Made by a program: the position numbers and the translations under genes. Below, piece by piece: positions 27,462 to 29,852 of a DNA stretch of 46,298 nucleotides. The stretch comes from Actinomycetes bacterium (GTDB taxonomy: Bacteria > Actinomycetota > Thermoleophilia > Gaiellales > Gaiellaceae), in contig JAOPYY010000058.1 of assembly GCA_025964395.1 (NCBI GenBank), positions 1 through 46,298 on the forward strand, in the 5' to 3' direction. Within the stretch, counting starts at the first letter, position 1. Each line of letters begins with the position of its first letter. Under the pieces are notes generated by a model. The model had not been told where the DNA came from, did not search any database, and saw only the letters and a program-made list of their open reading frames with translations.

Positions 27462-28199
27462 TTGCAGCGCGTCGAGCACGTGATGGGGATGCCCGTCATC
27501 GTCGACGTTCGTGACCCGGACGTCGACGACGGGACCCTCGACCGGATGTTCGAGTGGCTGCGCTTCGTCGACGCGACGTTCAGCACCTACAAGGAGGACA
27601 GCGAGATCAGCCTCATCAATCGCGGCGAGCTGTCGATCGAGGCTGCGCACCCCGATGTTCGTGAGGTGCTCGACCGGTGCGAAGCGCTGCGCCACGAGAC
27701 GAGCGGGTACTTCGACGCGCGTCCGGTGTCCGAGGACGTGCTCGACCCGTCAGGCCTCGTCAAGGGCTGGTCGGTCGACCGTGCCGCGGCGATCCTCGAC
27801 GAGGCTGGGGCGCGGAACTACGCGGTCAACGTCGCGGGGGACATGCTCCTGCGCGGACGGGCGATCCCCGACGATTCCTGGCGCGTGGGGATCCAGCATC
27901 CCATCGAGCGCGACAAGATCGCGAAGGTCGTCGCCGCCAACGACCTCGCGGTCGCGACGTCCGGCGCCTATGCCCGTGGCGACCACGTGCTCGACCCGCA
28001 CACCCGCCGCCCGCCGGAGGGCGTCCTCTCGGTGACGATCACCGGGCCGGTGCTGGCAACGGCGGACGCTTATGCGACGGCAGCGTTTGCGATGGGTGTC
28101 GAAGGCCCGAAGTGGACGGCGCGGCTGCGCGGCTACGAGGCGATGACGATCCTCGCCGACGAGACCGTGCTCTCGACGCCCGGCTTCCCTGCGGTCTAA
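27462..28199 (+). CDS. apbE: FAD:protein FMN transferase (ApbE family)
   Basis: A 245-aa Mg-dependent transferase that splits FAD and attaches FMN to Thr or Ser of a target protein. Family blocks: HVMGMPVIVDV (start), SGLVKGWSVDRAAAIL, YAVNVAGDMLLRG (usually N-x-G-G-D; here one Gly is Ala), LAVATSGAYARGDHVLDPHTRRPPEG, and ATADAYATAAFAMG (Mg-binding). No signal peptide or lipobox is visible, unlike many ApbE proteins, so it may act in the cytoplasm or be exported differently. Start: TTG 27462, which gives the family N-terminus RVEHVMG; ATG 27483 is a shorter alternative. The target is almost certainly the preceding FMN-binding protein. Confidence 0.9.
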   Translation: MQRVEHVMGMPVIVDVRDPDVDDGTLDRMFEWLRFVDATFSTYKEDSEISLINRGELSIEAAHPDVREVLDRCEALRHETSGYFDARPVSEDVLDPSGLVKGWSVDRAAAILDEAGARNYAVNVAGDMLLRGRAIPDDSWRVGIQHPIERDKIAKVVAANDLAVATSGAYARGDHVLDPHTRRPPEGVLSVTITGPVLATADAYATAAFAMGVEGPKWTARLRGYEAMTILADETVLSTPGFPAV

Positions 28200-28206
28200 A
28201 AAGGGC

Positions 28207-28361
28207 AAAAAAATCCCGCGGGGCCGGTGGCGCTTTCGTCCACCTCCCGACCAACCGATCCGGGCTTGCGCCCTTCACGACCGCTCGGGAGGCTTCGACC
28301 TACTTGCGCTCCGTGCCCTGCGGGATCCGGAATGTAGGCCACCCGAGCCACGGCGCGCAAG
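28207..28361 (-). ncRNA. Highly structured RNA candidate ending in a U-run, class unknown
   Basis: Read on the minus strand: (A) CTTGCGC-G-CCGTG (28361-28349) pairs with CACGG-A-GCGCAAG (28315-28303), 12 bp with one mismatch. (B) ATCCCGCAGGGC (28326-28315), in the loop of A, pairs with GCCCCGCGGGAT (28224-28213), 12 bp with one G-U, immediately followed by seven U (28213-28207). (C) GGCCTAC (28340-28334), also in the loop of A, pairs with GTAGGTC (28303-28297), a pseudoknot. (D) CCTCCCGA (28292-28285) pairs with TCGGGAGG (28250-28243), enclosing GGGC-GCAA-GCCC, a GNRA tetraloop hairpin. (E) GGTGG...CCACC (28244-28226). The GNRA loop and U-run fix the strand. No riboswitch, 6S, tmRNA, SRP or RNase P signature was recognised. 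A possible 5' extension to about 28400 contains GGGG/CCCC. Confidence 0.6.
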
Positions 28362-28404
28362 GGGGCTCCGAGACAAAACCCCGCACGTTGCGAGAGAAGC
28401 GTCT

Positions 28405-28509
28405 TCAGGACGCGTCGAGGACGACGATGCCGTCGTCGTCACCGCGGAAGGGGAGCGAACTGACCGCCGCGTCCGGGTGCTCGTCGAGGAGGTCTGCGGT
28501 CGCGGTCAC
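28405..28509 (-). CDS. 34-aa ORF resembling the N-terminus of RraA
   Basis: The GTG start overlaps the methyltransferase stop (GTGA), the coupling used throughout this region. The peptide runs ATADLLDEHPDAAVSSLPFR and then GDDDGIVVLDAS. The first part resembles the start of RraA/RraA-like proteins (TADLxDEH...LPFRDFGG), and the end resembles their GRVLVVDGGGS strand, as if the middle had been deleted. RraA binds RNase E and helicases in E. coli; most of that fold is missing, so this is either a remnant or a separate microprotein. Similarity is from memory of the family only. Confidence 0.45.
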   Translation of the reverse strand: MTATADLLDEHPDAAVSSLPFRGDDDGIVVLDAS

Positions 28510-29852
28510 GAGCGGAGATCGAGCATGCCGAGCTCCAGCAGTTCCTGGATGTCCGCGAGCGTCGAGCGCCGCCGTGGAACACGGGCGCGGTCGATCGCCT
28601 CCGCGAGCGTGGCTCGGCCATCGAGCTCGACGAGCACGTCGACCGTCTCGTCGTCGACCTCGAGCTCGTGCCACGTGCCCTCTTCGAGGATCACGGTCGC
28701 GCCTTCCTCGCCCGCCGACTGCTGGATACGCGCGTCCTCGACCAGTGCAAGCCGCTCGTCGAGCAGCTCCACCGGATCGTCGATCCCTGCGACGCGCTCG
28801 AGCGCCCTGAACACGCGCTCGACCTGGTCGCCCGCGTACTCGAGTTCGTCCTCGTCGACGGGATCGGTGCGGATCATGTGCACCTCGCCGGGCCGCTTGT
28901 GCAGTAGCACCGCGCCTTCCGTGATCCAGCCGACGCCGAGCTCCTCGAAGTACGCGGTCCACTTGTCGAGTGCTGCGCCGTAGACCTCTGCGTCGACCGA
29001 GAGATGCTCGTTCCAGCCGGCGGCGTGGTCGAGCGGGTCGGCTCCGCTGAGGCCGAGCACCCACGCATCGCACCCGTTGTCCTGTAGCCACTGATCGACG
29101 CGGACATCCGGGTCCTCGTCGGATTCCGCGAGCCAGCTGACCAGCATGCAGCCGAAACCGTTCTGGTTCAGGTGCTTCGGCACCTCGGTGACGACGGTCT
29201 GCGAGAGCTGGTCTGCTTCGAAGCCCGCTGCGTCGCGGTACTGCCAGCGGTCCTCGGGCGAGACGACGTAGGGGGCGTTGCAGGTGATGAGGTCGAAGGT
29301 CTCGCCGGCGACCGGCTCGAAGAGGCTGCCGAGCCGCACCTCGAGGTTGTCGATGCCGTTCAGCGACGCGTTCAGCGCGGTGAACGCGACCGCGCGCGGG
29401 TTCAGGTCGGTGGCGATCACGTGCTCGCTGTGCCGCGCCGCGAGCAGCGCCTGCGCGCCGCTGCCGGTGCCGATGTCGAGCGCGCGCCCGAAGCGTCGCC
29501 GCGGGGTGAGCGCTGCGAGCCACGAAGCCGTCGGGGTGTAGCTCGCGACGTACCCGTGCGGGTCGTCGTGGCCGACAGCGAACCCGTCGAAGGACATGAG
29601 CAGCCCTTCGGCTGGGACGATGCGGCCGCGCATCGCGATCCGGTCGCCGTCCTCGTGCGCCAGGCCCGTCGTGAGCAGCGCGTCGAGGCCGTCTCGCCCC
29701 AGAGCGGCAGTCGCGTCGTCGCGGGCGATCGGAACCTGCAAGAGGAGAAGCCGGATTGCGTTGCCGAGCGGCGTGTCGGGCAACCGACGGTCGAAGACGG
29801 CGACATCCGAGAGGCCCGCGGACGGTCCGTCGTCGCCGAGCAGGTCGGTCAC
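28506..29852 (-). CDS. Class I SAM-dependent methyltransferase (HemK/RsmC-like core)
   Basis: A 448-aa protein. The central methyltransferase domain (about residues 115-245) shows motif I RALDIGTGSGAQALLAA, the acidic end of strand 2 IATDLNPRAV, and the catalytic-type motif NAPYVVSPEDRW, where N-P-P-Y is usual; N-A-P-Y keeps the Asn and Tyr that hold a planar amino substrate. This fits the group that methylates glutamine, or guanine or adenine in RNA. Residues 1-110 (winged-helix-like) and the acidic C-terminal 190 residues are extra domains seen in actinobacterial relatives. The start at 29852 has GAGGAG just upstream. Whether the substrate is protein or RNA is not decidable. Confidence 0.82.
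   Translation of the reverse strand: MTDLLGDDGPSAGLSDVAVFDRRLPDTPLGNAIRLLLLQVPIARDDATAALGRDGLDALLTTGLAHEDGDRIAMRGRIVPAEGLLMSFDGFAVGHDDPHGYVASYTPTASWLAALTPRRRFGRALDIGTGSGAQALLAARHSEHVIATDLNPRAVAFTALNASLNGIDNLEVRLGSLFEPVAGETFDLITCNAPYVVSPEDRWQYRDAAGFEADQLSQTVVTEVPKHLNQNGFGCMLVSWLAESDEDPDVRVDQWLQDNGCDAWVLGLSGADPLDHAAGWNEHLSVDAEVYGAALDKWTAYFEELGVGWITEGAVLLHKRPGEVHMIRTDPVDEDELEYAGDQVERVFRALERVAGIDDPVELLDERLALVEDARIQQSAGEEGATVILEEGTWHELEVDDETVDVLVELDGRATLAEAIDRARVPRRRSTLADIQELLELGMLDLRS

Follow-up and report, generated by a model that had tools for sequence, protein, structure and literature searches.

The Qrr RNAs of Vibrio and the CsrB/RsmZ-type RNAs are multicopy, co-regulated small RNAs (sRNAs), and the glutamine riboswitch (RF01739) has an AAGUAGG loop-E-like element, which recurs in the RNA described here. 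The Gaiellales are a widespread group of soil bacteria whose molecular biology is little studied. A literature search, with most subscription journals outside its scope, returned no sRNA described for Gaiella, Thermoleophilia, or Gaiellales, and the main text of two large noncoding RNA discovery studies makes no mention of these taxa. Here we analyzed a window of 46,298 nt (the whole stretch of DNA under study) from a Gaiellaceae genome, in which an earlier note, made from the letters alone, had described positions 28207–28404 as a structured, pseudoknotted minus-strand RNA. The transcribed unit that we predict is shorter, a type B member of the family defined below with a length of ca. 120 nt (from ca. 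28326 to 28207, minus strand), and 28327–28404, which precedes the predicted start, consists of promoter and regulatory DNA.

The minus-strand fold of 28207–28362 had a free energy of −79.7 kcal/mol (z = −2.57; 1 of 200 shuffled sequences folded equally well), and the fold of the plus strand was unremarkable (z = −0.65). The predicted 120-nt RNA alone folded as a single rod (−69.6 kcal/mol). Since the z value from shuffled folds alone is weak evidence, the claim of more structure than expected by chance was judged from homology and covariation, which bore it out decisively. Two covariance models were used, one at family level (R1) and one from a wider set (R2). R1 matched the window copy at 28207–28327 on the minus strand with 93.6 bits (E = 5.6e-22), and R2 scored it at 82.6 bits; the window copy belongs to the model training set, and BLAST had found the family before any model existed. 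The copy shows the match to both models, the promoter, and the P1/U-run by which members of the family are recognized. Judging from these sequence comparisons, the stretch almost certainly encodes a real, previously unlisted structured RNA gene. The coordinates of its predicted features are collected in Table 1.

Table 1 Predicted features of the RNA gene and its upstream DNA in the window.
Feature	Positions	Strand	Basis or remark
Predicted small RNA, type B	28207..28326	−	5′ end near 28326, 3′ end in the U-run; R1 and fold
U7 run, predicted intrinsic terminator tail	28207..28213	−	Sequence; first U also pairs in P1
P1 3′ arm GCGGGAU, terminator stem before the U-run	28213..28219	−	Fold, covariation
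Opposite core strand GGACGAAAG, GAA half of the loop	28233..28241	−	Near-invariant; kept in f2
P4 3′ arm UCGGGAGGU	28242..28250	−	Covariation
P5 apical hairpin GGGC-GCAA-GCCC, GNRA tetraloop	28262..28273	−	3/3 modelled pairs covary
P4 5′ arm GCCUCCCGA	28285..28293	−	Pairs with 28242–28250
Conserved core strand AAGUAGGUCGAA: AGUA loop half, then P3 and GAA bulge	28294..28305	−	Invariance among copies
P2 5′ side GGGCACGGAGCGC	28306..28318	−	Pairs with 28221–28233; fold, covariation
P1 5′ arm AUCCCGC	28320..28326	−	Pairs with 28213–28219; fold
−10 hexamer TACATT	28331..28336	−	TA...T hexamer at equal distance from the RNA core in other copies
−35 element CTTGCG (TTGCGC)	28356..28361	−	TTGAC-like hexamer in other copies
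Regulator-binding-site candidate CGCAACGTGCG (consensus CGCAAATTGCG)	28382..28392	−	Centre ca. 61 bp 5′ of the start

The plus-strand gene apbE, whose stop lies at 28199, converges on the RNA gene, and the upstream neighbour is a minus-strand gene for a 448-aa methyltransferase (28506–29852; Pfam MTS/Methyltransf_25/DUF7059). The RNA had been placed between the convergent ends of apbE and a short ORF; the converging apbE and a minus-strand gene upstream agree with this, whereas the upstream neighbour is the methyltransferase gene and not a short ORF. The methyltransferase frame stops at 28506, and in 28405–28510 of the minus strand another frame, reaching 28405, looks coding (EHPDAAVSSLPFRGDDDGIVVLDAS); this coding-looking piece had no match in Pfam. 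The change of frame is possibly a frameshift or an assembly error at the 3′ end of the methyltransferase gene.

BLAST matched the stretch 28207–28404 to four other places in its own genome with 76–82% identity, giving five copies in all, two of which stand in tandem 255 bp apart. Of 61 relatives, 43 gave a match, although part of the weaker matches covered just the flanking coding DNA. A search of GTDB genomes with the core pattern gave 53 contigs, whose titles name almost exclusively Gaiellaceae, Gaiella, Thermoleophilia, or unnamed actinobacterial MAGs. Two of the 53 contigs (RNA copies L070 and L075) come from a MAG titled Burkholderiales (HEB_FP_1_bin.11), which is probably a mislabelled or mixed bin. 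From the core-pattern contigs we extracted 72 distinct copies, 56 of which were aligned (alignment A1). R1 matched 97 of 103 genomes of the window's family, including all 35 good ones, with 1–6 copies each, and in a sample of the class its matches outside the family were ten genomes, all of the same order. Among 129 Gaiellales genomes, R2 matched 108, and when 396 genomes sampled from the phylum were searched, it matched just five, every one of them from Gaiellales. No copies were found in the phage and plasmid collections searched or in IMG/VR. The best reading of this distribution is that the RNA represents a new family confined to the order Gaiellales. In tandem copies, the RNAs were 85–99% identical and the promoters 55–76%; the greater likeness of the RNA bodies suggests that the RNA itself is under selection or undergoes conversion.

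The conserved, covarying structure is one irregular rod free of pseudoknots. From base to tip, the consensus comprises P1, in which the 5′ and 3′ ends pair and after which come U residues; then P2 and a near-invariant loop; and above the loop P3, P4, and the apical P5, with a GAA bulge between P3 and P4. In the window, the closing helix GGAUCCCGC/GCGGGAUUU lies immediately 5′ of seven U on the minus strand, in keeping with the structured minus-strand RNA with a terminal U-run that had been proposed, and a T-rich tail is present in most copies. The GNRA-capped hairpin with further helices inside was also recovered: the GCAA hairpin is present in the fold, and a GNRA-like apical loop ends most copies. 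The near-invariant internal loop AGUAGGWYGAA/GGACGAAAG is located mid-rod. U, A, and G of AGUAG and the GAA bulge were invariant among the 56 aligned sequences; the window copy (type B) is without AGUA in the upper loop. AGUA opposite GAA matches the sequence of a G-bulged (loop E/sarcin-ricin) module, from which we infer that it may adopt this three-dimensional motif.

Compensatory changes were found in 7 of 8 pairs of the outer helix P1 and double changes in 12 of 13 pairs of P4. In A1, 92.6% of the cells were in standard pairs, compared with 26–34% when the 3′ partners were slid, and double-sided changes occurred at 20 of 34 pairs; A1 was not fitted to a model, but the structure used with it had been derived from these very sequences as their RNAalifold consensus, which likewise gives it an advantage over the slid versions. 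In a wider alignment across families (A2), which was fitted to the covariance model and is therefore biased toward the structure, 91.4% of the cells were paired (32–39% when slid), double compensatory changes were observed at 28 of 34 pairs, and none of 500 shuffles reached any of the measures. In family f2 of the order, the sequence of P1 is replaced, and both the pairing and the core are retained. The number of double changes and the replacement of P1 in f2 provide structural support independent of the alignment-fitting bias.

The window copy has the promoter CTTGCG-N19-TACATT (28361–28331, minus strand), a −35/−10 pair too weak for a standard consensus scan. A TTGAC-like hexamer was located 46–49 nt 5′ of the GGAGCG core in 70 of the 72 copies, and the spacer to the TA...T hexamer, counted from TTG, was mostly 17; this spacing places the predicted start at the foot of P1. 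Further upstream, the palindrome CGCAAATTGCG was recognizable in 63 of the 72 copies, located at −78 to −81 relative to the core, and it was exact in 35. Its counterpart in the window, CGCAACGTGCG, is weaker, with the outer letters kept. In eight genomes, an RNA copy lay at that fixed distance from 14 of the 23 exact palindromes; the control in the backward direction gave none. The position ca. 61 bp 5′ of the start is where a class I activator would bind. The palindrome was also considered as the terminator of the upstream gene and rejected; 28 copies have a divergent gene upstream, and the palindrome keeps a constant distance from the −35 element. As far as comparison of the copies can show, the putative sigma70-type promoter, the RNA, and the terminator form one conserved unit.

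Two kinds of palindrome site deviate from this arrangement. At L139 (G099:C1:2752286), nothing but a P1-like hairpin and a T-rich tail stands 3′ of the palindrome and promoter; this locus may be a minimal or decayed member of the family or another target of the same regulator. At L125 and L137 (G084:C42:5774 and G099:C1:1940171), the palindrome adjoins a common stretch GGGGCACCCC...CCACCACCCAC where the RNA is absent; the regulator may have a second target there.

The promoter also bears on the regulatory switch suggested in the earlier note, in which hairpin A, a pseudoknot, and the terminator helix would compete within one loop and so control the RNA's own termination. The complementary letters do exist in the window sequence taken alone. 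However, the pseudoknot GGCCTAC/GTAGGTC kept a median of 4 of 7 pairs in the 72 copies, and GGCCTAC runs into the −10 hexamer TACATT; hairpin A kept a median of 2 to 3 of 7 pairs, and its CTTGCGC is the −35 region. Because their 5′ arms are promoter DNA upstream of the predicted start and their pairings are not maintained in the homologues, both hairpin A and the pseudoknot were rejected. With its 5′ segments in promoter DNA and a pseudoknot-free rod as the conserved structure, the self-terminating switch is hardly credible.

Type A is the main form of the family. Its loci often include genes encoding sigma70 (regions 1.2–4), uppP/bacA, a DUF4015 protein, and a membrane protein of 70–80 aa, and at the main type A locus the small membrane-protein gene is often the next gene on the same strand. 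Type B includes the window copy; all the copies of this type that were seen are from the window's genus, and they sit next to apbE (at the corresponding position in G008/L074), an acyl-CoA dehydrogenase gene, or a glycoside-hydrolase-like gene. Type C was seen in the genera g19 and g35. At the f2 loci L149, L151, and L168, a response-regulator gene (MPRVLIAEDDRVIANAMA...) lies 3′ of the RNA on the same strand, an arrangement found in several f2 genomes.

Several dispersed copies per genome would also fit a mobile DNA repeat (a REP/MITE-like or attC-like hairpin) instead of an RNA gene. We consider this highly improbable, in view of the orthologous positions across species (e.g., beside apbE, L074), the lack of viral and plasmid copies in the collections named above, the spaced promoter, the U-run on one strand only, the covariation in standard pairs including G-U, and the asymmetric bulged core.

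For the 58 copies with a gene within 400 bp (called from ORFs and codon positions by a simple rule), the next gene was in the same orientation in 33 and convergent in 25. Since next genes occur in either orientation, a leader function is not general. The earlier idea of a stable small RNA that does not serve as a leader for a minus-strand gene downstream is supported. A cis-acting attenuator or riboswitch, in which a ligand at the core would stabilize P1 as the terminator stem and stop transcription into the next gene, is nevertheless suggested by P1 and the U-run, which form a terminator and close the core as in transcription-terminating riboswitches, and by the same-strand genes for the 70–80-aa membrane protein at the main type A locus and for acyl-CoA dehydrogenase at one type B locus. 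We regard it as unlikely as a general explanation: the 25 convergent next genes include apbE of the window, each tandem copy has a full promoter, and the neighbours differ among copies. At the main type A locus, however, read-through may regulate the membrane-protein gene in cis.

The reading we prefer, with a probability of roughly 0.6, is that these genes encode a free-standing, trans-acting small structured RNA of ca. 120 nt that forms a new Gaiellales family. A dedicated regulator, either an activator or a repressor, would act at ca. −61 and switch on all copies together; the several promoters would raise the dose of the RNA, which would end at its own P1/U-run terminator. The RNA would then bind and sequester, or steer, a protein via the conserved AGUA/GAA loop and the rod, like 6S/Ms1 or CsrB-type RNAs. 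We propose this protein-binding mechanism only tentatively. It is favoured over long antisense pairing because almost all conserved bases are in helices or the compact loop.

A family of base-pairing sRNAs, with paralogues like those of Qrr acting via the 5′ end, the apical loop, or a GGUCC tail, would account for several co-regulated copies with a promoter and terminator and also for the GGUCC (GGTCC in DNA) that stands 3′ of the U-run in 43 of the 72 copies (e.g., L046, L013, and L002). Such a mode of action appears rather doubtful for an RNA with a short apical loop and no long conserved unpaired segment, whose conservation is strongest in the helices and the compact internal loop. GGTCC is found 5–8 bases 3′ of P1; in some copies it is more conserved than the U-run, and it could pair with the core GGAC or extend the RNA. 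Its conservation counts against our preferred reading of a free-standing, trans-acting RNA because a plain terminator would not need GGUCC. In the window copy, the weaker palindrome, the upper loop lacking AGUA, and the faint −35/−10 pair also speak against that reading.

The RNA is very likely important for the cell, since it is kept in all 35 good genomes of the family in up to six copies, with a common regulatory site and compensation at 28 of 34 pairs. More speculatively, and with a rather low likelihood, it could be the central output, and a dose-dependent one, of a regulator with a regulon made up largely of these genes, and could control a core machine, representing a new class of global riboregulator. 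The machine would be RNA polymerase, the ribosome, or replication, a choice based on the sigma70 neighbours and DnaA-box-like sites. DnaA-box-like sites were observed ca. 95–150 bp upstream of the RNA core in many type A copies, and a cluster of them (TTATCCACA ... TGTGGAAATGTGGATAA) precedes the first main-locus copy in L036, L050, L055, L064, L068, L072, L084, and others; this cluster could serve to titrate DnaA or connect the RNA with replication. A location at oriC, suggested by these sites, was rejected, as dnaA lies elsewhere (in G030, dnaA at 56 kb and the RNA at 0.66, 1.50, and 1.70 Mb).

We compared the RNA with known families. At the gathering score, no Rfam family covered the RNA in a search of the whole window, and at E ≤ 10 the stretch and types A, C, and f2 gave only chance-level matches, in accordance with the absence of a recognized family reported before. 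A search for compensatory changes and for an Rfam match had been proposed as checks, and the RNA passed both, with double changes at 28 of 34 pairs in A2 and a negative Rfam result. ARAGORN found no tmRNA or tRNA genes in the window. A coding origin was considered because a GUG-GAC-GAA frame is readable at the 3′ end of some copies; it was rejected, since the U-run varies in length by single bases and no reading frame is kept. The alignments and the two covariance models now give the family a definition with which soil metatranscriptomes can be searched.

The new RNA resembles the bacterial small SRP RNA (RF00169) as a rod of ca. 100 nt with a GNRA-type apical loop; SRP RNA was rejected as its identity, the RF00169 model not matching it and SRP RNA being found elsewhere in six of eight genomes tested. 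Similarly, it shares a small size, paired ends, a bulge, and a U-run with the Y RNAs of Rsr RNPs, an identity rejected since, of 61 genomes from the order, no more than 2 encode the Ro/Rsr (Rsr/Ro60) TROVE protein. The glutamine riboswitch model matched a type A copy with 12.8 bits (E = 2.8), far below its cut-off of 35 bits, and the new RNA differs from this riboswitch in that no pseudoknot was seen and it is not a leader. Like the Vibrio Qrr and CsrB/RsmZ-type RNAs, it is multicopy, and every copy comes with a terminator and an apparently regulated promoter, but it lacks a sigma54-type promoter and repeated GGA hairpins. A role as a CsrA decoy was likewise rejected: GGA is not conserved in the apical loop, which is of the GNRA type, with GCAA in type B.

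With 6S RNA and the actinobacterial Ms1, the new RNA has in common a free-standing gene, paired ends, and a rod with an internal loop, and many copies lie near a sigma70 gene, which we counted as a further likeness. These traits, the gene neighbourhood being that of many type A copies, suggest a 6S- or Ms1-like RNA binding RNA polymerase. However, 6S RNA is ca. 160 nt or more with a large central bubble resembling an open promoter, whereas the new RNA is 120 nt with small internal loops only, and it occurs in 1–6 copies with separate 6S RNA in the same genomes. The 6S model (RF00013) matched neither the window copy nor types A, C, and f2, and 6S RNA was rejected as its identity, with separate 6S loci found in these genomes (in G030, 6S RNA at 1585988 and the new RNA at 1501782). 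Ms1 is longer and shows a synteny with HAD-hydrolase that was not seen for the new RNA. We therefore consider a 6S- or Ms1-like function quite improbable. If, on the other hand, the global-riboregulator role holds true, the RNA would be comparable in importance to 6S RNA, across an entire bacterial order.
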